DNA of 64,000 nt from contig JAPMUG010000001.1 of assembly GCA_026692725.1 (NCBI GenBank), positions 434,001-498,000 on the forward strand, in the 5' to 3' direction. The position numbers and the translations under genes are program-made. The DNA comes from Ecytonucleospora hepatopenaei. Taxonomy: Eukaryota; Microsporidia; Enterocytozoonidae. Positions 2,830 to 33,354 of the stretch are shown here, piece by piece (the stretch's first letter is position 1; every line of letters begins with the position of its first letter). A model generated the notes under the pieces. The model had not been told where the DNA came from. It did no database searches and was given only the letters and a program-made list of their open reading frames with translations.

Positions 2830-3851
2830 ATAACGAGTATACCCGTCCTTTGCGTCATAAACTTCTTTTCTCCTTCTTTCCATACTATCAACTATACTAT
2901 CAGCCATTTTTTGAAATGTTTTCACTAATATTTAATATCATTTTTCATATACTTTTTTTAAAAGTTCGTCGTCATTTTTCGACCTAAAATCACTATTATT
3001 TCTCTTGTCGACGGCCCACAAATGCTCTATTGGGTTATAATCAGGTAATTGGGACAGCAATTTAAGCGTTGGGAACAGTCACTTTTTAGGTGACTTTTAA
3101 TTAAGGCGTGGTGTGCTTGGGATCATTATCAACTGAAAAATCAGATCAAATATTCCCAATTTATAAAACGAAACTTCCATGTTTTCCTTAAGTATCTTTA
3201 AATATTGAAAACGATCTATTTTCCATTCGATTCGCACCAGCTTCCCAACACCTGAGTATGAAAAACCTCCCCATACCATAATTTTTTATCCACCATATTT
3301 GGTGGTCCCTATTAAATTCTTGTTCATTCACAATTCATCTTGCTTCCTTCTGACATAACAAATTTTTGGGTAGTTTAATCGTTCAAACGGGCTTTCATCG
3401 GACTAGGCACATTTCTTGAATGATCTTTTGGAATGTACATCCACTCCTTAGCCTTTTGAAAACGCCTTTTCATATTTTCAGGTGTTAAATAAGGCTTTCG
3501 GAGTCCAATGTACATTTAATAACTTAATTCACACTAGATATAATAACCGTGTCTCGATAAATTGCATTATTAAATTTTTTTTCTCCGCCATCACCGCTAT
3601 CTGTTTATTATTAAATTTTTCTTTTGACCTTAATAGGCCTTCAATATATGTCTTTTGTGAAGGAGGAACGGTTGATGTATAGACAGTACCTTTTTACGTA
3701 AGGTATGGCCTCTATCTTTGTATTTTTTAACTACATAACCAATAGTAGATCTATTGATTTTTAACTCATCAGAAATTTTTTTAAGACTCCATTTTTGCTC
3801 ATAATAAGCAATAATTTTGCCTTTAGTAAATTCACTGAGGTGTTTTGACAT
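2830..3851 (-). pseudogene. Tc1/mariner transposase remnant
   Basis: The minus strand begins with an ATG at 3851 (MSKHLSEFTKGKIIAYYEQK), a helix-turn-helix of the Tc1/mariner type with the second helix at LKINRSTIGYVVKKYKDRG. The catalytic part is scattered in other frames: WGGFSYSGVGKLV near 3230-3275 and the DNDPKHT motif near 3108-3135. A C-terminal GEKKFMTQRTGILVIKSV-like end lies near 2820-2880. Frameshifts and stops are frequent. It is the same subfamily as the better preserved copy at 9415-10343. Confidence 0.7.
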
Positions 3852-3899
3852 AAAAAGGTTATAAAAAAGCAATATTTTTTTAAATTTTAGGAGGGAAAA

Positions 3900-4510
3900 C
3901 CGTTTCTTCTAGTTTTCTTTTGACACTTTGATATAAAATTATCGTCTAAATAATAAAATAAACAAAACAATGAAAAACTAGTTTTAGAAATCTCTATATA
4001 TAAAGTATGACACATTGGTGAATTGTCAACAACTTTGTTTTTGGGAAAAAACATTGAACATTAAGGTTTTCTGATTAAAAAAGACACTATTATAAGTAAT
4101 TTATCATATCTGGTGTTAAATGTTGGTCCATTGTGTTTTAATATATTTTTTGAAAAGTTTTTTTCTTGTGATGAAAATTTTATAACGAAAGTTTTTGATA
4201 AGTAATCTTAATGCTATTTTTTATAGTTATAAGCAATTTTTAAAAAACTCTATCGTATTTATAATTATTTAGTATCAGATAACAAACTACCATATCTTAG
4301 CACATTGGAATAAAAAAAAGTAATTTTTATAATTTATTGTCATTTCTTTTTCTTTCTTTTTCTCCTGTCCTTCTCCATTCTTTTTTGACCTGATGTCCAA
4401 AGGATACTTACATGTAAAGAACAACTAATAAATTAATATACCATTTGCTTTATTTTAAATATAAGGTTGAAAGAAGTTCAAAAATATTTTTAACACAGCA
4501 TTAAAACATA
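3900..4510. other. AT-rich spacer without recognisable genes
   Basis: This lies between the minus-strand mariner remnant and the outer terminal repeat at 4511. I see only AT-rich sequence with scattered stops in all frames and a short pyrimidine-rich run at 4343-4378. Nothing coding can be supported. Confidence 0.5.
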
Positions 4511-4682
4511 CAGTCCTTCGCATAAATATTAGGACAATTAAAAATAACACTTCCAAACACATTAACATATAAAATCTTATTTATATATAATAAATTTCTA
4601 ACTAAAGCATTTTTGTTCAATATTTGTTATTTGTCAACATATGGGTAATTTTTATAAAGATTAAAAATCACCTTTGCATAAG

Positions 4683-5341
4683 TGTCATAGTATACACCTG
4701 ACAAGAAAATTTTTAGTTAAAAAATTTTTTACATTTTAACCATCCCCAGAATTTTTATAAAAAAATTTATTTATATTTTTAACTTTATTATATACATTTA
4801 AAAGACAATACCAAAAACAGCAGGAAGGAAGGAAAAGAGAAGGACAGGAGGAGGTGTCGTCGACTTGAGTCCGAAGCACATAGAGTAAGGATGTCCCAAG
4901 AGGAAGAGGAAAAGTGGAACAGGAGAAGCAAGGAGATAAAAAGGGGAAAAAGATAACTGCCACGTCCTGGCATGGCGGAGGAAAAAGGGTAATTTTTAAA
5001 ATTTATTGAGTCATCATTTTCCTTCTTGTCTTGCTCTTCTTCTCTTTCCTGTTGAGCACGCTCCTCCTCTTCACGAGCCATTCTAGCTCTGTGGGCCTCT
5101 GACTCGAGGCGGCGACGCCTCCTTCTGTTTTTCTCTCTCCTTTTTTGTCCTGGTGTTTTAGGCATATATATATTTAGTAAAATTAAAATAATAATATTTA
5201 AAACTCTTTAATGATGAAATTGGTTGGGGTAAAAAGTTTAAAAAATTTTTTTAAAAAAAATTTTTATTGTCAGGTTTATACCATGACAATAACTAAAAAA
5301 TTCTAAAGATTTTTTTCTTCCCCCTGCGGTAGAACGTGGCA
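4683..5341 (+). mobile_element. TG...CA basic-peptide element (LTR-like), copy a, split by copy b
   Basis: After removal of copy b (4958-5288 plus its duplicated target 5289-5293) this is a 323-bp unit running from TGTCATAGTATA to AACGTGGCA. It is flanked on both sides by the 5-bp duplication ATAAG (4678-4682 and 5342-5346). Its plus-strand frame reads through RRLESEAHRVRMSQEEEE near 4850-4915, the same peptide as in the other copies, but with a frameshift upstream. It inserted into the 5' terminal repeat region of the mariner whose transposase starts at 5432. TG...CA ends, 5-bp duplication and size fit a solo LTR. Confidence 0.75.
4958..5288 (-). mobile_element. TG...CA basic-peptide element (LTR-like), copy b, nested in copy a
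   Basis: This 331-bp unit is in inverse orientation and inserted into copy a. It has a perfect 5-bp target duplication ATAAC (4953-4957 and 5289-5293). Read on the minus strand it starts TGTCATGGTATA and ends GGACGTGGCA. An ATG at 5165 opens a frame (MPKTPGQKRREKNRRRRRR, then LESEAHRARMAREEEE, then an acidic Gln/Glu stretch) that stays open to the element's terminus and runs on into copy a. That open end is expected if the ORF normally continues into a downstream internal region such as gag. Confidence 0.75.
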
Positions 5342-5425
5342 ATAAGTATTGTGACTTGATCGAAAAACAACAATTTAATCAATAAAATTTTTTTCCTTGA
5401 TTTTTTTACATTTTTTATCTTTTTA

Positions 5426-6676
5426 ATGGTCATGCCAACGAAGAAACAATTAAGTGAAAATGAGAAAAAAATGATCTTTAAATATAAAGATGAAAAACTG
5501 CCAATGGCCCAAACAATCAGGTTAACAGTGCTGAGAACAGGCAAAAAGGAAGGGGAAGAATATCTGGAAGAATTTATTAACTTACTATTATTACTATTAT
5601 TATCATTATTGTTATTATTATTGGTATTACACTGCTGTTGTTGTTTTCCTCTTCTCTTGCTAATCTTGCCCTATGGGCTATGTTCTCTTGCTTCTTTCTT
5701 TCTCTTCTTTCTTTTTCTCTTCTTCTTCTACCTTCTAATCTTACCATGGATTAAACGTATGGGTAAATTTTGTAAAAAGTTTTTATAAAAAAATGGAGGA
5801 GAGGGTTTTAATTAAAATCTTAATTTTAATTGATTGTCTGGTATTACCTTAAGGTAATACCATGACAAACAGGTAGATCAAAGTCTACAATACACCGTAT
5901 TTGGGCCCAAAAAGAAGTAAAACCTCCCACACCACGTCCAGGAAGACACCCATTATTAAAAGGACGATTTTTTAAAATGGTTATAAAAAAATCAAAAGGT
6001 GAAAGAAACACTTGTAAAAGAATATAAAAGAATTGAATTAAAAAATGTCCCATGTCAATGTTTCTAGGGCTCTCTGAAAAAATGCCGAAAGGATCTGGGT
6101 AAGATGAAACCTAGTTCCCGTCTTACTGAAGGGAAAAAAGATCATGTTCCAATAGGCAACTTATCACATTTTTAAAAGGAAGAATGGGAAAAGTCATTTT
6201 TTTGGATGAGAAAAAGCTTAATCTTGACGGACCTGATGGTTTGAATTAGTATTGGCATGACAAATCACTTCCCGTCAAAACTTTTGAAAGAGACAGTGTG
6301 GTGGTGATAGCGTAATGGTTTGGGCGGCATTCACAGCACAAGGAACCTTGCACCTGGTGTTCATCGAGGGTACTATGACGTCAGGTTTGTACAAGAAATT
6401 GATTGAACGGATCATAGTACCCTTTGTATTGAATTCAGATGAAAATTTAATTTATCAACAAGACAATACAAGTGTGAGTGTGAATGGAGAAATGCGAGGA
6501 TTTTTTGAAAGAAAAGGTGTACCAGTATTAGAATTGCTCTCGTTCTCACCGGACTTGAATCCGATGGAAGCTTGTAGGGGTGGATAGGTTCAAAAAGTGT
6601 ATGATCAGTGTATTTCATATAGGCCAAAAAAAGACCTGAAAAATGCAATATTGAATACTTGGAGGAACATACCCTA
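5426..6676 (+). pseudogene. Tc1/mariner transposase remnant interrupted by element copy c
   Basis: The N-terminus (MPTKKQLSENEKKMIFKYKD from 5432) is a mariner helix-turn-helix start, close to those at 12766 and 15238. The frame is interrupted at 5529-5867 by a TG...CA element and then continues in broken frames: KVIFLDEKKLNLDGPDG near 6190-6240, GGDSVMVWAAF near 6300-6335, YQQDNTSVSVNGE near 6461-6495 and SPDLNPMEA near 6548-6573. It ends near 6676 (DLKNAILNTWRNIP). The terminal repeat follows at about 6756-6776. Frameshifts make it non-functional. Confidence 0.75.
5529..5867 (-). mobile_element. TG...CA basic-peptide element (LTR-like), copy c
   Basis: A 339-bp unit with a perfect 5-bp target duplication AACAG (5524-5528 and 5868-5872) interrupts the mariner transposase frame. 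On the minus strand it begins TGTCATGG, followed by a perfect 22-nt palindrome (5840-5861), and ends CTGTTCTCAGCA. An ATG at 5747 starts MVRLEGRRRREKERRKK. A one-base shift then moves ENIAHRARLAREEEN into another frame, followed by an Asn-rich stretch and NSSRYSSPSFLPVL up to the element end. Confidence 0.8.
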
Positions 6677-6884
6677 ATTTTATTTTAAAAATATTTTGTT
6701 TCCATGCAAAAAAGATACCATGGTATTAAAAGTTTAGGAGAAGAATAAATTATTTAAGTCTTAATATTTTTACGAAGATTTAAAAATTTTTTATCAGGAT
6801 TTCTACTAACTTTCAATAGTTTAATAAGTAAAATAAAAGGTTAAAACAGATTTTTATTCAATTTATATTAATTTTTTTATAAAG

Positions 6885-7210
6885 TGCTACGACCCTATCT
6901 TGAAGGAAGAAAAAAGTGCTTTTTAAAATTTATTGATTCGTCGTGCCTGTTTTTTCATCTTCTTCTTGATTCTGCTGAGCTGCCTCTTCTTCCTCTCGGG
7001 CTACCCTTGCTCGATGCGCCTCGGACTAAAGGCGACAAAGCCTCCTACTGGCATTTTCTCTCATTTTTTGTCCTGGTATCTTTGGAATGATATATATTTT
7101 TAACTAATTTAAAAACTAAAAAAATCTTTAAAGTTTATACTTTAAAAATAGGTTGAGTAAAAAGTGAAAAAATTTTTTAAAAATTTTATTTTCAAGTCAA
7201 TATCATGGCA
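6885..7210 (-). mobile_element. TG...CA basic-peptide element (LTR-like), copy d
   Basis: A 326-bp unit ends on the minus strand at TGCCATGATATTG (7210 side) and at GGTCGTAGCA (6885 side). Flanking pentamers are TAAAG (6880-6884) and TTAAG (7211-7215), a 4/5 match. The minus frame reads IPKIPGQKMREN..RRLCRL, a stop, then SEAHRARVAREEEEAAQQNQEE. It is clearly the same peptide as in copy b, but the start codon is lost and there is one premature TAG. This is the oldest-looking member of the MPKTPGQ subfamily. Confidence 0.65.
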
Positions 7211-7319
7211 TTAAGACATTTATATACAAATCTTAACTTAATTTTTTACTTAGCTCTAAAAAAACAGTCATAATATTTTTGCAAGGGACTGTATTATTTT
7301 TACTATTAGCATTACTTAT

Positions 7320-7648
7320 TGCCGAGAACAGGCAAAAAGGAGGGAGAAGAATATCTTGAAGAGTTTTTTAAATTATTATTACTACCATTATCATTATTGT
7401 TATTATTGCTGCTGTTGTTGTTTTCTTCCTCTCTTGCTAGTCTTGCCCTGTGGGCTTGGCTTTCCAGTTGTCTTCTCTGGCGCCTCTCTTTTTCTCTACG
7501 TCTTCTTCCTGCGGATCTTACCATGATAATGAATATTGGGGGTAAATTTTGTAAAAATCTTTTATATAAAAAAATGGAGGAGAGGATTTTAATTAAAATA
7601 TTAATTTTAATCAATTGTCTTGTATTACCTAAAGGTAATACCATGACA
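7320..7648 (-). mobile_element. TG...CA basic-peptide element (LTR-like), copy e, best preserved
   Basis: A 329-bp unit has a perfect 5-bp duplication CTTAT (7315-7319 and 7649-7653). It starts on the minus strand at TGTCATGGTATTACC and ends at CTGTTCTCGGCA. The ATG at 7524 opens an uninterrupted frame of 70 codons (MVRSAGRRRREKERRQRRQ, LESQAHRARLAREEEN, an Asn-rich run, then NSSRYSSPSFLPVLG). That frame leaves the element in frame and stops eight bases later at 7312. It lies just outside the right TA of the outer mariner repeats. Role of the peptide unknown; an N-terminal gag-like segment is my preferred reading. Confidence 0.8.
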
Positions 7649-7889
7649 CTTATGTTAGTATTATTGTTAGGGGGCAAACAAAAACAAAAAAAAACTAACT
7701 TATCATCTAAAGAGCTAGAATTATGTCTAACTTTACATGTTTTGTTTTTTTAAACATTAAATTGATTTTTTTCTATTTTTAAATTTCTCCTTATATATTC
7801 ATTAATTTTTAAAAATAAAAATACAATGAAAAAATCACATTAAAAGATAAAAACTAACTTTAAAAAAATAATTAAGATTTAGAAGACAC

Positions 7890-8600
7890 ATTTGTTATAA
7901 ACTAAAATTTTAATGTTTTTTGTTTACATATCAAAGATGTTATAAAATGTAAATCAAGATTTAAACTCAATCAACACATTAAACTAAAAAAACATGAAAA
8001 AAATGCATTTAACAATATTTGTGACGATAAATAAGATTTTTTTTATATAAATAAAAAATTCAATATTTAAAAAATTGTAAAAAGGAATGTAAAGATCATA
8101 CATTCCTTCACATAAATTAAAAAATAATGATTTTAATAAAATGTTGTTTGAGTTAACTGGCACAACTGTCAGTGAAACATTTGTCAGATCACAAATTGAA
8201 ACTTTGTATGATAACGAGCAGAAAAAACTATTAAATTTAATAAAAAATGAACCTTTTTATCTTATTTTTGATGAAAGTCCTATTAAAACATACAAAATTT
8301 GGAATGTTTTAATAGGATTGATCAAAAATCTAGGTAAAGAATATTTATTAGGAAGTTTTTATACAATTAAAACATCTAATAAAAACATGGTTCATGAAGT
8401 TATTGATACTTTAATCAAAAAATACATAGTTAATTATCAAAATTTGTATCTTTTGATCGTTGATGCGGTCAAATACAATATTGCATTTTATAATGATTTA
8501 TAAAAAAATATTTACACATCATGCATTTTGCATAAACAATAACTTTTTGCATAATTGTGTGACTTAAATTATGAAAAAAGTCAATGATGTTGATCAAAAA
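7890..8600 (+). pseudogene. hAT transposase N-terminal half, relatively well preserved
   Basis: A zinc-finger remnant (KCKSRFKLNQHIKLKKHEKN) lies near 7945-8003. It is followed by an open stretch of 120 codons at 8141-8503 (ELTGTTVSETFVRSQIETLY, FDESPIKTYKIWNVLIGLIK, NLGKEYLLGSFYTIKTS, LLIVDAVKYNIAF). The conserved His-Cys region that follows in other copies is already degraded at 8515-8580, and sequence after about 8620 is unrelated. No terminal repeat is visible on either side. Confidence 0.75.
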
Positions 8601-8619
8601 ATATTTATTTTTTGAAATA

Positions 8620-8888
8620 CACTAGAGGAAAAAAAGATTGCAAAATTTTTAAAACATATCTTTTAATTAAATTTATTTGACAATTCTTACAATACACTTA
8701 TAAAATTAAATAAAAAAACAATAGTATATTTTTTATCAATCAATATAACCGAAAAAAGTATATAGAAGGGCTATAAAACTTTTGTTATAAAAAAATTGGA
8801 CGAAAGTTTGCAGAAAAATCATATAAAACCATTTAATTAATAAACTATTTCGCTATATTTTATTTTTATTATTTTTTATTATACATTA
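8620..8888. other. AT-rich spacer between transposon remnants
   Basis: No frame and no terminal repeat can be supported. The right side (8830-8885) resembles the AT-rich leader seen upstream of other mariner starts. Confidence 0.4.
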
Positions 8889-9150
8889 TGCCATGGGTAG
8901 TAAGAAAGAATGTTCTGAGGTGGCTCAAAACATTATATTAACTATGTTACGGCGGACAAAAAATCGCCGAAATAAGCAAAGATACTGGGTACTGCGAGAG
9001 TACCATATATAAAATAAAGAACAATGGCGTGGCTGTGGCACCAAAAGCACAGGTCAGGAAGACTAAAATCACTGACTACTAAAGGAAAAAATATGTGATC
9101 AAATTAGCGTTGAGAAAAAACCTGAAAGCAAAGCAATTCGCTAGATCTTA
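8889..9150 (+). pseudogene. Tc1/mariner transposase 5' fragment
   Basis: This is a degraded helix-turn-helix region: MGSKKECSEVAQNIILTM at the start, then in another frame CESTIYKIKNNGVA (compare CKSKSTVY at 12858). It is cut at a tract (TACAGTGGTGTAACTAAAC, near 9148-9167) that resembles a Tc1/mariner terminus starting at a TA. Only about 90 codons remain. Confidence 0.5.
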
Positions 9151-9414
9151 TACAGTGGTGTAACTAAACTTATAAGAATTGCTCTAAGTTCTTTAAAAAA
9201 TTATGATTTTTTAATTTAATAAAATTTTTATAAAGGTTGAGAACGTATCATTTATTTATTATTTTATTAAATTCTGAAAATTGATTTTTTATACCCTTGA
9301 TGTAAGTAAAAAATGAGAAAAATAATTTTAATATTGGTAGGACCTCCCTTTGCCTTTAAACTGCTAAAACCCTCTTTTTCATACTTAAAACCAGGTTCTA
9401 TAACACCTCAGGTT

Positions 9415-10343
9415 TTATACTGTACCAAATTCGCTCCACCTCTGTGAATAATTCCTGTTGTTTTTCGCCCTGAAACCTGATAGTTTCTTTAAAATATAGG
9501 CCCATAAATGTTCAATAGGGTTCAGGTCCGGGGATTGAGACGGCCATTCCAATGTTACGAAGTTGCAACGCTCCAAAAACCCTTTTACGAGCTTGCTTGT
9601 ATGCTTCGGATCATTATCTTGTTGGAAAATTGGTTCTGTCAGGTTCATCATATAAAAAATTCTTCAAGGTTATTCTGTAATAAGTCTAAATATTGAAATT
9701 TGTCCATATTGCTTTTGATCAGAACAAATTTACCAACGCCGTAATATGAAAAACAGCCGCAAACCTGAATTTTGCCTCCTCCGTGTTTAATTGTACCTAT
9801 TAAATTTTTTAATAAATACTTTTCGCCTTTATTTCTTCTCACAAAAGGCTTTTAAGAAAGCGTATAAAACTCAAAGGGGACTCATCTGACCATACAACCT
9901 GTTTCCAATAGTCGTCCGGTACATACATCCAATCTATTGATTTTTTATATCTAAAATCAATATTTTTCTTAGTCAAATAAGCCTTCTCAATAATGCAAAG
10001 TTAAACAATTCTAATTTATGTTGGATATTGACAACTGTTGTACGACTGAGATCACAATTAAATTCTTTATTAACTTTTTCAGTTATTTCCTTATTAGAAA
10101 TTTTTTCAAATGATTTTAATAATTAAATAATTTAATTATTGAGGCTTTTTGAAAATCAGAAACTTTGGAAGATGTTAAAACGCATTTTCGGTCTGTAGTT
10201 CTCCTTTCCATGCTGTTTTTAATGATTCTATCCACTGTCGCTAGTGGTATTTTAACTTTTTTCGAGATGTCTTTGTAAGTTAGATTTTCATCCAGTAAAG
10301 CCAAAAGTCGTCCTTTAGTTAGGTCATTAATGTGTTTAGACAT
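9415..10343 (-). pseudogene. Tc1/mariner transposase, minus strand, nearly full length
   Basis: It starts at the ATG at 10343 (MSKHINDLTKGRLLALLDEN, with helix-turn-helix YKDISKKVKIPLATVDRIIK). It continues through SDESPLSFIRFLKSLL near 9850-9900 in shifted frames, then KHGGGKIQVCGCFSYYGVG at 9730-9790. The third acidic region reads PIFQQDNDPKHTSKLVKGF followed by QSPDLNPIEHLWAYI at 9510-9640, the D-then-D/E spacing of the DDE family. At least two frameshifts separate the pieces. It is the least damaged mariner transposase of its subfamily here. Confidence 0.8.
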
Positions 10344-10584
10344 AAAAGGAACATTAAAATTTTGTTTATTATTGTTTTTTGTGGTGATAAAGTGATTTCT
10401 CATTTTTTTACTTACACTTTTTTAAAAAATTTTGATGTATGGTTTGAAAAAATAGTTTGTTTAAAAAAAACAAAAAAAAACATACCCCTAAGTGGTATAC
10501 AAACAGCACTAAAGACTGTTACGTAGAAAATGATAAGATGTTTCTAGGGGTCTAAAACATTTCTCATTTTTTACTTACAAGACT

Positions 10585-11371
10585 GCATGCCTTGGGTGTC
10601 ATATAAAACGGTCTCTAGAGTTCTGAAGAAGGATTCCAAGGCCGTTTATAAAAAACGAAAGCGCTTTCCAAACTTAAATGAAAAAAAGAAAAATGATAAG
10701 ATCGAGTTCGCAAAAAATATGCGAACTGGCGCGAGGAGTGGAAAAGAGTGGTCTTTTTTGATGTAAAAAGGTTTAAATTAGATGGACCTGACTCCATGCA
10801 GTTCTATTGGCATGCAATCGACTCCGAACCTACATGTTTTACGACCAGACAAGCTGGCGGAGGAAGAGTGTAATGGTTTGGGGAGCGTTTTCGTAAGTTG
10901 GAACCCTGCTTTAAGACGTTGTCGAGCAAACTATGGACGGAAAAGGGTATAAAAATTTGATTAAAAACAATAGTTTTGTTAATTCGGTCTAGTGATCAAA
11001 ATTTTATTTACCAACAGGATAATGCTTCCGTCCATTGTGTATATAAATGTCCAATAAATGTGGGAAAGGAAGGTGTAGATGTGATGGAATGACCTGCATG
11101 CTCACCAGACCTAAACCCTATTTATTCTTGTGTGCCTTATGCTGTACGAAAAGTATACGAAGGAGGTAAAAACTTTTTAAATTTTAAATCACTAAAAGAT
11201 GCAATTCTGGACGCATGGAAAAAATTTTCAAAAACATTGTTTGAAAATTTAACTGATTCAATGAAAAAAATGATGTTCGAAGTTGTTACTAAACAGGGAA
11301 AGACTATAAATTGTTTATTTTACAAACTTTTGTTCATTTTTTATATTATAATTTCAAAATTTTGCCGTTAA
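10585..11371 (+). pseudogene. Tc1/mariner transposase remnant
   Basis: Pieces in alternating frames include LKKDSKAVYKKRKRFPNLNE near 10620-10680, EWKRVVFFDVKRFKLDGPDSM near 10730-10800 and AGGGRVMVWGAF near 10850-10890. Further pieces are YQQDNASVHCVY near 11010-11045, SPDLNPIYSCV near 11103-11135, and an open C-terminus at 11132-11371. The N-terminal helix-turn-helix is missing. A possible degraded terminal repeat is at 11430-11465 (CCTTGCAAAATTTTG). Confidence 0.65.
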
Positions 11372-11469
11372 GGGTATTTAAAAATATTTTTTAGATAAAA
11401 ATATTTAAAACATTTTATTTATTAAAAAAGGATGTCAACCCTTGCAAAATTTTGTCTTAAATATTACTT

Positions 11470-12080
11470 AGTTTAACACTTGTTTAAAACGCAAACTTTT
11501 GTTCCCCAGTTAATAATAAAAGTTTAAATCTGTATTTTAGGAGCCTGAGCCACTTCAAAAACCTAGTAAAACACGTTAGTGGAAACGTATCGAGTTTTTG
11601 ATTTTTTTAAAGAGTTTTTCCTATAAATAACTATTTTAAATAATTTCTTAATGTAAAATCAAAAACATGCAAAGAATGTATGATTCTAGTATTTTTAAAG
11701 TATAAATTTTATGGCAGAAGGCCATTTAAAAAGGCTTAAATTTTGCCACTGGGTTAAAATTTTATTTTTACCTCTATTTTAGAGTTTTCAAAAAAACAAA
11801 ATTTTAAAAAGTTGTTGACTAAAAATTTTAGTAATTTTATTATAGATAAATGTATAAATGTAGACCAAATACTCGTTTTAAATCTTTTACTTCCTTTGGG
11901 CTAATCTGTACATGGAAATATAGTAGAAAGAAGACTTCAATTTGTTTACATTGTATTTTTAAAAGCTTTAAAAAGGAAGCAGAAGATTTGATTATATTTA
12001 TTTGAGCTATTGCTTGCTTGAATCAAATTGTGTTTTTTATCAACTTTAATGCCATATATATGCTTCAATTTTAAAAACTT
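11470..12080 (+). pseudogene. hAT transposase C-terminal remnant
   Basis: The segment PLQKPSKTR..KRIEFLIFLKSF near 11550-11620 corresponds to the PFKKPCETRWGT-IDFLIFLK region of the other hAT copies. GNIVERRLQFVYIVFLKALK near 11915-11975 corresponds to the VERSFSMLKDM dimerisation tail. No frame is intact. A Merlin fragment follows directly. Confidence 0.5.
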
Positions 12081-12089
12081 GTGTTAAAA

Positions 12090-12415
12090 ACCAATCATTA
12101 GGTAAAAAACATTGTGATAAGTTTTTGGATACAATTAATTGGTGGTGAAGGCATTATATTGAAATTGAAGAAAGCAAATTTGGCGGGCGAAAATACAACA
12201 TAGACCATAAAGTTGAAGGTGATTGGGTCTTAGGTATGGTAAAAAAAGCAGATCGAAAAATTATTTTTATACCAGTAAAAGACCTTAACTCAAATACCTT
12301 AGAAGTCTTAATAAGGAAATATGTCGAACCTAAGTCCGTTATTTTTATTGATCAATGGAAAGGGTATAGTTTTTAGCAAAATACTAAAGTCGGGTAAGTA
12401 AAAAATGGGACAGGC
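12090..12415 (+). pseudogene. Merlin (IS1595-like) transposase fragment
   Basis: It contains the central DDE core: IEIEESKFGGRKYNIDHKVE, GDWVLGMVKKADRKIIFIPV, and TLEVLIRKYVEPKSVIFIDQWKGYS (12160-12376). These align with the much better copies at 23500-23730 and 33750-33950. The zinc ribbon and C-terminus are missing, and no terminal repeats were found. It sits next to hAT sequence, like both other Merlin copies here. Confidence 0.7.
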
Positions 12416-12419
12416 CATA

Positions 12420-12765
12420 AACTTAAAAATTTTATAAAATCTTTAAAAACATTTGTAGTTTTCTAAACATAATTTTATTATAAGGATTAATCAAACAATT
12501 TTTTGTACAGTTGACAGCAAAATTTTAAACACTGTGGTATACTGCTCATAAAACAAAAACTATAGAATAATAACACACAACACACCTAAAAATTGTTTAC
12601 AAAAAATAATCTGTTTTATTTTTTTCTTACCAAATCTTTATTAATAACATAGGTTTTTTTTTCAAATCAAAAACGCAAATTTTTAGACACATAAAAAAAT
12701 AATAATCTAATCAATAAATTTTTCCCTCTTTTTTAGATAACTGTTTTTCATTAAATTTTAGCCAT
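12420..12765. other. AT-rich stretch, mariner leader
   Basis: No gene. The last ~100 bases (AATCTAATCAATAAATTTTTCCCTC and on) match the leader preceding the mariner starts at 5432 and 15238, so this is probably the 5' part of the next element. Confidence 0.4.
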
Positions 12766-13432
12766 ATGGGAGCTAAAAAGGAATTATCAGAAAAAGAAAA
12801 AAATATGATTTTTAATAGTAAATGAAAATTTAATATTCGCGATGCCTGTGTATTTTCATGTAAAAGTAAATCAACAGTTTACTGAATTTGGCGCGCGGGT
12901 GAAATTGTACCCAACAGAAAACACACAGGAAGGCCTCGAATACTATCAAAAAGGGTAGTAAAAAGTGTGATCAAAAAATCATACGAGAAAGGAGCAACTA
13001 CAACCTCAATTATTGAGAATTTAGGGTTTATAGTATCAAAAGATACTGTAAGAAGAGTAATAAAAAGAGATGCGTGTAAAAGTTTAGGAAAAAAAGCGCG
13101 AGCCAAATTTAGATCCTGAAAATATCGGGTTAGGAAAGATTGGGCAAAAAATACATTAAATTTAATGAAAAATGGCTATCGATAATCTTTTGGATGAAAA
13201 GAAAATTAATTTAGACGATCCAGATGGCATGCAATACTATTGGCATGACCTGGACAAAGAAAAAGAATATTATAACACCCGCCAATGCAAAGGAGGTGGA
13301 GTTATGGTTTGGAGAACTTTTAATTACGACGGTACAATTCACCTGGAATTTATTGACAGTACTATTGATTCAGGTAAATATAAAAAATTGATGAAAAAAG
13401 TCATTTTACCTAAAATCAATAGTAGTGATTAG
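12766..13432 (+). pseudogene. Tc1/mariner transposase, truncated
   Basis: Start MGAKKELSEKEKNMIFNSK, then IRDACVFSCKSKSTVY and GRPRILSKRVVKSVIKKSYEKGATT. SIIENLGFIVSKDTVRRVIKRDA follows, and then an open stretch at 13172-13432 (LDEKKINLDDPDGMQYYWHD, QCKGGGVMVWRTFNYDGTIHLEFID). It is cut after LPKINSSDQGS near 13440, before the second catalytic Asp, where a hAT-like element of another family begins. In-frame stops occur in the first third. Confidence 0.75.
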
Positions 13433-13619
13433 GGTAGCAAAAAAAAACGTCATGTTTTTAGTAACAACATATTTTTTGTGTTTTTTCACAAAAAAATGAC
13501 AATTTTGTTATAAAAAACAAATTGATTTTAATTATAAGCTTATAAGATCAAATTTCCCTCCCGTTTTTAAAAAAACATTATTTACCTTATTATGAGTTTT
13601 TTTGAGTTTAATAACAAAC

Positions 13620-14882
13620 ATGCCTAAAAAACGACATTGTTTAAGTGTTTAGACTCATCAAAGGATTTTATAACAAAAAATAAAGTAATTTATTGTAAAT
13701 ATTGTTTTTTTCAATTTCAAAAATTGATTTATATACAAAAAGAAAGTGTGAAAATCACACTAAAACCAATAAACATAGGAAAGAAAAGAAGTAAAAATTA
13801 GCAATGAAAAGATAAAAAAAGGCGAATTTTTTTAAAATATTTTGAATTATTTTCATCTTTTTTAAATGCTTATAAACTAACTTTTAATTGCTTTAATAAT
13901 GAAGCAACAAAAAATTTCTTTAATTTCTTAGGAAATCCTCTATATACTAAAGAATTTTATAGAGAAAATTTATTACCAGAAATTTTTGAAATTAAAAAAA
14001 GCAATATTTACAATAAATTTTTTGAAAAACCTTTTTGTTTATCTTTGGATGACTCTAACTTGCCTTATATGGGTGACGTTTTGGCAATAGACATGTCAAA
14101 ATAAAATTCAAAAAAATGTAGTAAAAAATTTTTAAGTTTAGTTTAAAGTATTTGTTACTGATGGTGCGACAGTATGTCGTAAAGTAGGCAAGATGTTTAA
14201 AGAAAAATATGGAGTAAAACATGTAATATGTCTTTGCCATAACTTACATAACCTTGCTGAAACCGTCAGAAAGGAATTAAAGACTTTAGGGCATTTTTTA
14301 GAAGTGATCAACATAAAGTGGTCAAAAGGACACCATTTTAAGCAATGTTGGAATATTTCGAAAAGTTTGCCAAAGTTTTCCAGTTATGTTACAACTATGT
14401 GGGGAACATGGATCGAGTCCGCACTTTTCTTTAAAGACCATTTTGCTGAAATTTTAGGTGTTTTTTCATAATTTCGCGAAGGGTCAGAGAGCATTAAAGT
14501 GGCTGAAAAACAGTATAAACAACTTCTTTTTGAATTTAAATTACTTGAAGAAATAAAAAGTTTGCCATCAGTTATTAAAAATTTAGAGAAAACTGATTTG
14601 ACATTAAAAGAACAATTAAATATTTTCTTTTCGGTTAAAAATAGCTTGAAAACAAAAATTTTTAGTGATCGTTTCGATCAAATAGTTGATAAAAATGTGG
14701 ATTTTAAATTTTTTATTGATGCATCAAAAAATTTACGAGATTGTAAATTTAAGCATTTTAAATACGTAAATTTAACCAATGCAAATATTGAGCGCTCATT
14801 TTCAGAGCAAAAACAATTTATATCATCCCAAGGAAATAATTTAACAGTAAAAAAACTTTTTCAAAGATTAATAGCCAAATAA
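13620..14882 (+). pseudogene. Second hAT-like transposase family, frame-broken
   Basis: It starts near MPKKRHCL (13620), with EFYRENLLPEIFEIKKSNIY and FCLSLDDSNLPYMGDVLAID near 13950-14090. After a break comes VTDGATVCRKVGKMFKEKYG, then VKHVICLCHNLHNLAETVRK (14150-14270), matching the hAT Asp plus Cys-His pattern. A 127-codon open stretch (14499-14882) ends in the dimerisation motif NANIERSFSEQKQFISSQGN. It shares little sequence with the element at 17-2068. Two or three frameshifts separate long open pieces, so decay is recent compared with the mariners. Confidence 0.75.
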
Positions 14883-14918
14883 ATTTATTTAAAATACTCT
14901 TTTTATTGTTTTTAAAAC

Positions 14919-15000
14919 ATTTTAATGTTTTTTCTAAAACAAATTATTAATTTTTTAACATTTTAATATTTTTTCTAAAACAAATTATTAATTTTTTAAC
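14919..15000. repeat. ~41-bp tandem duplication
   Basis: Two nearly identical head-to-tail units follow the second hAT-like frame: 14919-14959 and 14960-15000. Each contains TTTTTTCTAAAACAAATTA, and they differ at very few positions. It could be part of the transposon's subterminal region. Confidence 0.7.
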
Positions 15001-15237
15001 ATTTTAAAAATTTGAAAATTGTTGGTACCCCAGTTATGACCCTTTAAAATTGAATAAAATTTTCAAATTCTTTTATAGTTTGTCTTCAAATGTTGTGTTT
15101 TATAATTTAGGGGTATAAACAATAAATTTTTAAAAATCAAGTACGCAAAAGTATTAAGAATCAATCAAAAAATAATAGTTTAATCAATAAAATTTTTCCT
15201 CGTCATTTTTTAATAAATTTTTATATAAAGATTAGGC

Positions 15238-16549
15238 ATGCCATTGAAGAAACATCTAACTGAAATTGAAAAAAAACAATATCCTAAGATGTAGAGATGC
15301 AAACATGACTTCGGTTTAAGCCAAACGTATAACGGCAGATCAATATCAACCATATACTGTGTTTAGAACCAAAAGGAACCATTGGAGAGAAAGTTCGTCC
15401 AGGAAGATCTAGATTAATTTCAAAAAGGGTATTAAAATTGATTTCAAAAATCAGTTCGTGAAAAAGAAACTTGCAGCAAAATAATAAAAGAACTGAATTT
15501 AAAAGTATTGCATTGGCGTGATATTATATTAAAGTAATGCCAGACAATTAATAAAATTGCTATTTCAATTAAAATCCTTTCCTTCATTTTTTATATAAAA
15601 TTTTTTTAAAAAATTTACCCATATAGCAATTTACCATGGTAAGATCAGAAGGAAGAGAAAGAAGAGAAAAGGGAAAGAGACAAAGAAGGAGACAAGAGAG
15701 CATAGCTCACAGGACCAGACTAGCAAGAAATGAAGAAAACAACAATAATAATAACACTAATAGCAATGGCGATAAAAATAATTTAATAAATTCCTCTAGT
15801 TATTGTTCTCCTCCCTTTTTGTCTGTTCTCGGTACACATGATACTGTTATGCGTGTAATGCAAAAAATGATCCAAGGAAGTGGGGTATGAAGAAAGCTAG
15901 CCTAAACCTTGACGCATAGAAAAGAAAGATCAGGTTGGATGAAGTTTTAGAACGCATCAATTGGGACAAAGAGTGGAACAAGATTATTTTTTCTGATGAA
16001 AAAAAGTTTAATCTTGATGATTCAGAAGGCATGCAATATTATTGGTATGATAAATCACTTCATAGGGAAGTTTATTCAAAATGTCAATGTAAGGGAGGAG
16101 GTTTAATGCTCTGGGTGGATTCACGGCACATGGAACGCTGCACCTTGAGTTCATTGAAGGTACTATGACGTCAGGTTTGTACAAAAAATTATGAACGAGA
16201 TCATATTACCTTACATTTTGAATAATGATGAAGAATTTATTTATCAACGAGACAATTCAGGTATTCATGTGAAAGGTGAAATGGTAGGATTTTTGAGGAA
16301 AAAGGTATAAATGTATTAGATTGATCTTTATGCTCCTCGGATCTTAATTCAATTGAAATTTTATGGTGCTGGCTTGTCCGTAAGGTTTATGAATCAGGTA
16401 AATCTTTTAGATCAAAAAAGGACCTGAAAAAAGCAATTTTAGAAACAAAAGAAATAATTCCAGATAATTTAATAAAAAACTTAGTTAATTCAATGCCTAA
16501 TCGTTGCCTGGAAGTTATTAAAAACCTTGAAAATAAAATAAATTATTAA
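15238..16549 (+). pseudogene. Tc1/mariner transposase interrupted by element copy f
   Basis: Starts MPLKKHLTEIEKK. Before the insertion it reads SKIIKELNLKV; after it, DTVMRVMQKM continues the same helix-turn-helix region in frame. Then come EWNKIIFSDEKKFNLDDSEGM, QCKGGGLMLW, a degraded YQRDNSGIHVKGE, CSSDLNSIEILWCWLVRK, and an open end to the stop at 16547-16549. Terminal repeats are visible outside: TACGCAAAAGTATTAAGAAT near 15139-15158 and its complement near 16550-16571. It has several stops and frameshifts. Confidence 0.8.
15514..15834 (+). mobile_element. TG...CA basic-peptide element (LTR-like), copy f
   Basis: A 321-bp plus-strand unit inside the mariner transposase. The left end (TGGCGTGATATTA) is diverged, but the hairpin partner (GCCAGACAATTA) is kept. 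The right end reads CTGTTCTCGGTA. Flanking pentamers TGCAT and CACAT match at 3 of 5 positions, fitting an old insertion. The ATG at 15636 starts MVRSEGRERREKGKRQRRRQ, ESIAHRTRLARNEEN, an Asn-rich run and NSSSYCSPPFLSVLG, still open through the element end. Confidence 0.7.
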
Positions 16550-16574
16550 ATTCTCAATATTTTTGCGTAGTTAA

Positions 16575-17080
16575 AAATATAGTGATCAGGGTAACTAAAT
16601 TTTTAATATACATTTTATACTTAAAATTTTATAATAAATAGGGGAATTTAATCAATTCTAAATAAATTTTTTTAATATGTATATATTTTAAAATATATTT
16701 ATATATTTATATAAATTTTTTACCTCAAAAAGAACAGTCTCAATAATTTTGTGTATTACTCTATATTAAATAATAAAATATTATTGTTAAAACATGGTAT
16801 TTAAATTATTTTTATATAATTATAATTTACTAAAATATTTTTATATAATTATAATTTACTAAAATATATTTTGTCATAGTATTATATAAAATAACTTTAT
16901 ATCAAAAAATAAAATTTATCTTTTTTAGGCAAATAGAAAAATTTAAAATAATGTCTAATAATTTGTAAATACCTTAAACAAAATACATAAAATATAAATT
17001 ATTCATTTTATATTTTAAATTAAATATATTACAATTTATAATTAAATAATTAAATAAATATATAAAATATATTATTTAAC
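16575..17080. other. Gene-free AT-rich junction between transposon zone and gene island
   Basis: No frame can be supported. It contains a direct duplication of about 29 bp (near 16806-16863, units with ATAATTATAATTTACTAAAA) and a polymorphic-looking AT tract up to the stop codon of the next gene. Confidence 0.5.
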
Positions 17081-32010: not shown

Positions 32011-32517
32011 AATTATTGTTTTTTTATTAAAATATTACTTCAAAAAAATTTTTGTTTTTAAAATTTATTATATTTTATAAAAAAACATTTCAATATTTTC
32101 TTGTTTAAAATTTCTTTTATATTTAAGCATATCTTTTAACATACTAAATGATCTTTCCACTGCAGAACTTGAATTGGGAAATGATAAAACTTTATTTTGA
32201 AATGCCGATATAAGATTTTAGTTAAAAAATAATTGTTTAAAAAATGTTTCTTGATTCTTTTTTCTAAATAATCATTTAAATTAACTTTATCATGATTCAA
32301 ACCTTATTTTTTAAATCATTTTAATACTTTCATAAATTGAAAAATTGTTTTTTCACTTAAAAAAATAATTTGTCAAAAAAAACCGTAATTTCTGACAATA
32401 TACACCATGTCATCATAAACGGTTTTATTATTAATTAAATTCATGCAAATTTTGTATGTTTCGGAACAATCATTTTTAAATTCTTTCAATATTTTGCAAA
32501 TTTGATCAAAAAATTTT

Positions 32518-32937
32518 TTAAAAAAAGTATAAAATCAAACTTGTTCCCCATCGTGTTTCACAAGGCTTTTTAAAAGGTCCAAGATCTCGAAACAAACCAT
32601 GGAGTCTTTTATTATAACCTATGAGAGTATTGATTTTTTTAATTAATAAATTTACATCACAAAACTTTTTTAGAATAAAAGTCACACAATTGTGTAAAAG
32701 GTGACTTATGCATGTAAAATGCACTATATGAGGTTGTTTTTTATGTAACTCCACATAGAATAAAATATTATATCTCACTGCATCAGTGATCATTAATATC
32801 AGGTTTTTATAATCTAATTGATATTTTGCAAATAAATCATCAAAAATAACATTTAAAAGCTTACTATCGGATGATTCAATTGTACTATAACATCCTAGTA
32901 AATACTCTTTACCTGGATTTTCAACAAGTCCAATCAA
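32518..32937 (-). pseudogene. hAT transposase catalytic-region fragment (longest open piece)
   Basis: 139 codons without a stop, covering the middle of the transposase: the NPGKEYLLGC block, the DAVRYN Asp region, the CISHLLHNC His/Cys pattern and the CETRWG block. It belongs to hAT copy 2. Preceding and following pieces (FDESPI near 32970-32990; tail near 32100) are in other frames, so the protein is not made as one unit. Confidence 0.75.
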
Positions 32938-33354
32938 AATATTCCAAAACTTGATATTTTTAATAGGACTTTCGTCAAAAATAAGGTAAAAAGGTTTATT
33001 TTTAATTAAATTTTTAAGATTTTTTGTTTAAAATCATATAAAAATTTAATTTTTTTTCTTACTAAAGTTTCAGAAACCGTTATTCCTGTCAATTCATATA
33101 ACATTTCCTTAAAATTTTAGTCATATCATTTTTATCAATTAAAATTTCAGTTTTTTCAGAAGAATCATTATCAACACAAGAATCAATAAATATGTTTTTA
33201 TTGTGTTTTTTGCTATTAATATGACGTAAAATTTCAAAATTTGATTTACATTTAATAACATTTTTGCAATATTTACAAAAAACATTGAAATTTTTGTTAT
33301 GTAAAAAGTGTCGCCATAATCACCTATTATCTTTTTTAATTTGTTTTGGAGCAT

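Follow-up and report, generated by a model that had tools for sequence, protein, structure and literature searches.

Short insertions with an Arg-rich reading frame in Ecytonucleospora hepatopenaei, probably solo LTRs with a gag start inside

A stretch of 64,000 nucleotides from the shrimp-infecting microsporidian Ecytonucleospora hepatopenaei (the window, positions 434001-498000 of contig C5 in a 3.09-Mb assembly of 13 contigs) contains six related short units, E1 to E6, which carry or once carried a reading frame for a peptide with an Arg-rich head. With a probability of roughly 0.8, these units are solo long terminal repeats (LTRs) left by a family of LTR retrotransposons, divided into two subfamilies, that is extinct or has not been sampled and whose gag starts inside the LTR. 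An initial annotation of the window had proposed solo LTRs of this design, and the proposal stands as the best-supported one on account of the insertion structure, the selection on the frame, its common 3' phase, the accompanying signals and a precedent elsewhere in the genome; it is qualified in that no parent was found and that the link to gag is indirect.

Insertion structure and copies in the genome

All six units were recovered where the initial annotation had placed them, with lengths of 321-339 bp (323 bp for E1 once E2 is subtracted). E1 (4683..5341, plus strand) is a solo-LTR-like copy of subfamily Q with the ends TGTC...GGCA and the target-site duplication ATAAG/ATAAG; its own pieces, 4683-4957 and 5294-5341, are split by E2 (4958..5288, minus strand), a further subfamily Q copy that inserted into it with the duplication ATAAC/ATAAC. 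The third copy of this subfamily in the window, E4 (6885..7210, minus strand), is flanked by TAAAG/TTAAG with one mismatch. Subfamily N is represented by E3 (5529..5867, minus strand; AACAG/AACAG), which lies in a mariner transposase relic, by E5 (7320..7648, minus strand; CTTAT/CTTAT) and by E6 (15514..15834, plus strand), which lies in a second mariner relic and has the flanks TGCAT/CACAT with two mismatches. The orientation described earlier as shared is that of the peptide relative to its element; on the window, E1 and E6 are on the plus strand and the other four on the minus strand. Likewise, the TG...CA termini described for the whole set are present in five of the six units, the exception being E6 with TG...TA.

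The 5-bp duplications are perfect in four units, as had been reported, and since 5-mers paired at random with this spacing agree at a rate of 0.00526, perfect duplications at four of six units are far above chance. Further evidence comes from the two mariner/Tc1 transposase relics that host E3 (5339..6879, plus strand) and E6 (15145..16674, plus strand), the extent of each being given by its repeat match to the other. Removal of E3 together with one duplication restores the mariner frame locally, the joined flanks reading ...QTIRLTGRSKSTIHRIW, and the same holds for E6, where they read ...LNLKVLHDTVMRV; both agree with the mariner of another locus, L023 on contig C1 (QTKRITGRSRSTIYRVW; LNLKVSHDTVLR). 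These two independent empty sites confirm both the boundaries of the unit and the 5-bp length of the duplication.

Some units begin with a near-palindrome, a TGTC...GACA hairpin within the first 21-34 nt, as judged from computed DNA folding against 200 shuffles. It is pronounced in E3 (5834..5867, minus strand; -10.4 kcal/mol as DNA, z -6.35) and E5 (7616..7648, minus strand; -6.5 kcal/mol, z -3.74), for neither of which any of the 200 shuffles was equally stable, moderate in E2 (5268-5288; 6 of 200 as stable) and weak in E1 (4683-4703; 33 of 200), and it was not found in E4 (200 of 200) or E6 (63 of 200).

The genome was searched with E3, E2 and the C1 copy as DNA queries and with the E5 and E2 peptides as protein queries; copy counts are lower bounds. 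At least seven copies exist, the count of six given at first being right for the window only, as a seventh lies on contig C1 (L023, 2880 to about 2930 plus about 4404-4702). This copy belongs to subfamily Q, ends in TG...AA and is split by a mariner; its flanks, TTATT/TTTTT with one mismatch, are weak evidence of a duplication in DNA that is very AT-rich there, and its 5' part was pointed to by an over-permissive BLAST whose other matches were mostly low-complexity. We read the non-CA 3' ends of E6 and of the C1 copy as decay. The mariner inside the C1 copy (L023, about 2930-4404) retains a 160-aa open transposase frame and has a 93% relative on contig C10; insertion is thus reciprocal, with units sitting in mariners and a mariner sitting in a unit. 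A search by terminal pattern gave 13 places against seven for the reversed-pattern control; four of the 13 are E2, E3, E5 and the 5' part of the C1 copy, and seven further ones showed no relative of the unit at E <= 1e-3 (C5:445080, which falls within the window, and C7:309092 left out).

DNA identity is 75-80% within subfamily N (E3, E5, E6), whose peptide has an Asn-rich tail, and 70-76% among E2, E4 and the C1 copy of subfamily Q (E1, E2, E4 and the C1 copy), whose tail is rich in Glu and Gln. Between the subfamilies (E2 vs E5) it is about 55-60%, varying by region; what both have in common is the position of an AATAAA, an AHR-R motif and the general plan.

The reading frame and its signals

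In the copies that keep it (E2, E3, E5 and E6), the ATG sits 121-125 nt into the unit. The initial annotation described the peptide as open at the 3' end of every unit, which is true of three of the six: E2 (69 codons; 4959-5165, minus strand), E5 (68 codons; 7321-7524, minus strand) and E6 (66 codons; 15636-15833) run from ATG to the end of the unit without a stop, the frame occupying 199-208 nt or about 62% of these intact units. The other three are broken: E1 has ATA in place of the start ATG and a 1-nt gap, E3 is disrupted after about 39 codons by a 14-bp insertion, and E4 has ATT in place of ATG and an in-frame TAG. The distance from ATG to the end is 1 mod 3 in E2, E5 and E6, so that a single 3' phase is found across both subfamilies, and E3 would keep it were its insertion absent. 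Beyond the unit, the frames stop after 2 (E5), 18 (E6) and 50 (E2) more codons, as chance predicts.

Selection was examined on the first 34 codons of E2, E3, E4, E5, E6 and the C1 copy (E1 was excluded for its gap), with the limit that pairs are not independent. The proportion of synonymous differences (pS) exceeds that of nonsynonymous ones (pN) in 14 of 15 pairs, the exception being E4/C1 copy. For nine of the 15 possible pairs the ratio was tested against null draws; in-frame pN/pS is 0.17-0.41 in eight of them, and the draws as extreme number 0, 0, 0, 0, 0, 2, 12, 80 and 961 of 1000, that is, 0-12 in seven of the nine. For those eight pairs, values in four of the five other frames range from 0.35 (E3/E6 in frame +2) to 3.22, and those in antisense frame 1, whose third codon position coincides with that of the sense frame, from 0.23 to 0.63, higher than the sense frame in all eight. 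Across the six copies the sense frame has two stops, as does antisense frame 2, and the remaining frames have 5-12. The longest plus-strand open frame was reached in 0 of 1000 shuffles for E5, 30 for E2 and 28 for E6. Given the ratios, the comparison of frames and the stops, translation of this frame, and selection on it, are very probable for the time in which the family was active. Purifying selection, judged from these substitution patterns, very probably acted on the peptide frame and mostly in this frame only, and the copies very probably decayed after insertion. Codon-level conservation, put forward at the outset as a check, is thus borne out, substitutions being non-random by codon position in most pairs.

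Upstream of the frame, AAATTTACCC is found 13-15 nt before the ATG in E3, E5 and E6, hence in subfamily N only, and it resembles the AAATTT-like and CCC-like signals that passages of PMC2803860 describe near microsporidian start codons; the poly(A) signal given there is AAUAAA, and the 5' leaders measure less than 7 nt. Downstream, AATAAA starts at the unit length minus 49 in E2, E3, E4 and E6, that is, in four of the five window copies scanned (E1 left out). Were transcripts to begin near the CCC and to end some 20 nt downstream of AATAAA, the repeated region of the transcript (R) would measure about 200 nt and be mostly coding.

If the units are solo LTRs, transcription of the complete element would have begun at the gene-start signal of microsporidian type that precedes the ATG, and the first 66-69 codons of Gag would have lain inside the LTR, mostly in R, encoding a tail rich in Asn or Glu behind an Arg-rich head that probably binds nucleic acids. 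From there the frame would have crossed the primer-binding site and entered the internal gag-pol region. The AATAAA near the 3' end would have acted as poly(A) signal in the downstream LTR only, the upstream one having to be passed over, and all copies seen would have lost their interior by homologous recombination between the two LTRs.

The search for a parent and the rival explanations

A precedent for this design is found on contig C8, where the only integrase-type LTR retrotransposon found in the assembly, an element of Ty3/Gypsy type, spans 2907 bp (L021 3336-6242; C8:106336-109242). It is inserted in a copy resembling a long interspersed nuclear element (LINE-like, a label that is our own reading, LINE-family profiles lying outside the scan), of which an uninterrupted relative exists at L020. 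Its identical 60-bp LTRs (AGTTG...CAACA) are flanked by the duplication GACTA, 5 and 6 bp being indistinguishable. TGGCACC directly follows the 5' LTR, and a purine tract, GGAGGGGGA, precedes the 3' LTR; zinc knuckle, reverse transcriptase (RT), RNase H and integrase domains are recognisable in a frame broken by one stop and one frameshift. With 98% of the query aligned, its Pol matches the NCBI entry pol [Ecytonucleospora hepatopenaei] at 100% identity. The gag ATG (3374) lies inside the LTR after an AATAAATTTTTACCC signal, so that 22 nt, or seven codons, of gag are within it. The element is like the units in this placement of the gag ATG after a signal, in the 5- (or 6-) bp duplication and in a 3' end of ...CA; it is unlike them in its 60-bp LTR with only seven gag codons, in a 5' end of AG rather than TG and in a gag head that is not Arg-rich. 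It shows that the gag-in-LTR design occurs in this genome, at small scale.

Several findings weigh against solo LTRs as the explanation. Above all, own-genome DNA and protein searches revealed no paired copies, full-length element or interior for any of the seven copies; the initial annotation had named the lack of any full-length element with these LTRs, together with random substitution by codon position, as grounds for giving up its reading, and of the two the first applies, as the 3.09-Mb assembly yielded no such element. Matches to the rve and RVT_1 profiles at E <= 0.1 are confined to contigs C8 and C12, with none on C5 or C1. The sole rve match belongs to the C8 element, as do the only RVT_1 matches that are neither LINE-like nor telomerase (two of six; of the other four, LINE-like copies and a telomerase candidate on C12 have two each). 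The RVT_2 profile gave no matches, which is uninformative since its control profile gave no signal either. A genome query with the C8 LTR matched its own two LTRs only. By these profile matches the units are not complete LTR retrotransposons, which have RT, integrase, a primer-binding site and a purine tract between their LTRs. A scan for tRNA genes, aimed at the primer of the C8 element, counted none in four loci and three in the window. On the protein side, a search with the E5 peptide alone returned two candidates and one with a long frame, which admits long polyproteins, 399, none of them at E <= 10. A Pfam scan of the E2 and E5 peptides gave nothing over the curated cut-off, and of seven unnamed entries inspected by eye among 59 relatives of C8 Pol, two of which lack the gag start, none begins Arg-rich like the unit peptide. 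As no protein relative is known from these searches, the probable gag identity of the translated frame is read from its position and phase only, and the peptide would be a Gag head on that footing.

Details of the frame and the signals point the same way. The 3' phase is not kept in E4 (0 mod 3) or the C1 copy (2 mod 3), both dead copies, and the pair they form runs opposite to the others (pN/pS 2.21, with 961 of 1000 draws as extreme). The signal of E3/E6 is weak, with 80 such draws and a value of 0.35 in frame +2 against 0.32 in frame, and by a cruder test the share of third-position differences exceeds one third at p < 0.05 in 5 of 15 pairs only. The open frames of E3 and E4 are ordinary (96 and 977 of 1000 shuffles), and the length of the open frame alone is not decisive because minus-strand frames are equal or longer in E5 (109), E3 (85) and E4 (67). 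The spacing from signal to ATG in subfamily N is wider than the leaders of less than 7 nt in the passages of PMC2803860, and in subfamily Q TTTACCC/TTTACTC precedes the start by about 60 nt or more. As for AATAAA, a frequent hexamer where DNA is AT-rich, E5 has lost it, and in the C1 copy it starts 45 rather than 49 nt from the end.

The absence of a parent or interior for all seven copies would also be expected of a self-contained miniature element with a promoter, a small Arg-rich open reading frame (ORF) and a poly(A) signal, mobilised in trans by a retrotransposon integrase such as that of C8, whose peptide acts alone. The promoter-like and AATAAA signals stand in gene order, and the ORF does end 2, 18 and 50 codons past the unit in E5, E6 and E2, but it has no stop of its own, and its 3' phase is common to three intact copies from subfamilies only about 55-60% identical. 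A missing stop and a shared phase are what is expected if translation ran on into an interior. Solo LTRs are therefore favoured, as they need no surviving parent, whereas a self-contained element needs both its own stop and a reason for the shared phase. Moreover, a free-standing substrate of retroviral type requires a reverse-transcribed form with two LTRs, and the C8 LTR ends, AGTTG...CAACA, differ from the unit ends, TGTCA...GGCA. We consider this explanation unlikely.

The short length, the lack of RT or integrase inside and the nesting of two copies in DNA-transposon relics are also compatible with a non-autonomous DNA transposon, either a miniature inverted-repeat transposable element or a Ginger-like cut-and-paste element. 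This is very unlikely in view of the selected ORF that runs out of the unit and of inverted termini that amount to a few imperfect bases (TGTC/GGCA), short of the 10 bp or more looked for. Mariner elements duplicate TA and Ginger1 4 bp, and the 5-bp duplications of the units are neither. Nor does a duplicated host gene fragment or low-complexity Arg/Glu/Asn repeat with chance flanking matches account for the exact duplications and restored empty sites, which show unit-wise insertion; the peptide is compositionally biased and Asn-codon-like repeats on C9 and C13 match weakly, but these matches span just 43-60 bp of repeat tract, and we hold this origin to be extremely unlikely.

Genomic setting, known systems and meaning

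Six of the seven unit copies lie at 438.7-449.8 kb of the 811-kb contig C5, near its middle, and the C8 retroelement matches lie at 94-110 kb of 236 kb, likewise near the middle of the contig. In Microsporidia sp. MB, according to passages of PMC13174016, LINEs and Ty3 LTRs make up repeat regions in a central position; here, the C1 copy, at 32 kb of 151 kb, and mariner matches such as that at C5:51.7 kb are not central and speak against such a pattern, and a centromere-like role would be conjectural. Another repeat family, at 32019-33115 of the window, has 11 matches (itself and one short match included) of 72-100% identity on C5, C1, C10, C12 and C13. The LINE-like stretches L020 4721-7187 and L021 6244-8710 are 99.7% identical over 2467 bp, and one has a 1277-codon open frame, from which recent activity in this small genome is probable. 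The telomerase reverse transcriptase candidate on C12 is at L022 2741-5290 (Telomerase_RBD, E 8.7e-9, and RVT_1 pieces).

Terminal-repeat retrotransposons in miniature are short, without RT or integrase, and consist of two LTRs around a short interior; the units share the shortness and the lack of both enzymes, but were never found paired. The nearest described design is that of Ty1, which works alike, with the limit that the likeness is one of LTR design, not of sequence comparison, and that the units are known without pol. That the gag AUG of Ty1 lies in the LTR, as the initial annotation stated, agrees with passages of PMC5454406, which give a 334-bp LTR, a gag AUG after a 53-nt leader that begins at R, a tRNA primer site within the GAG coding sequence and an RNA running from the 5' to the 3' LTR. 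By arithmetic from the numbers in those passages, about 40 nt of the Ty1 LTR are coding, against 199-208 nt in the units. In microsporidia, Ty3/Gypsy elements with a single polyprotein rather than separate gag and pol have been reported from larger genomes, transposable elements being typically absent from small ones (Parisot et al., 2014; passages of PMC4202319). These passages describe no gag start inside an LTR, and the main text of the paper contains "hepatopenaei" and "solo" 0 times and "gag" once. Among the matches listed in a literature search, no title or abstract opening concerns solo LTRs of E. hepatopenaei, most subscription papers being outside its coverage.

The units would accordingly be an established type of object whose LTR is out of the ordinary. 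It is conceivable, if quite unlikely, that the LTR is itself a small gene, with selected coding sequence over about 60% of its length and nearly all of R, and with a poly(A) signal. Intact solo LTRs could then still make Arg-rich Gag-head peptides of 70-120 aa, terminated where the flank happens to offer a stop, and these peptides could interfere with related elements or be co-opted against them, in the manner of copy-number control by truncated Gag.

Taken together, the units, if they are indeed solo LTRs with a gag start inside, would represent an LTR whose repeated region is mostly protein-coding, beyond what is seen in Ty1, and a test case for how early termination is escaped when a poly(A) signal and gag codons share one R region. 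Gene finders may mis-annotate such units as small Arg-rich genes. For E. hepatopenaei, they would reveal a second lineage of LTR retrotransposons, seen through its solo LTRs only.

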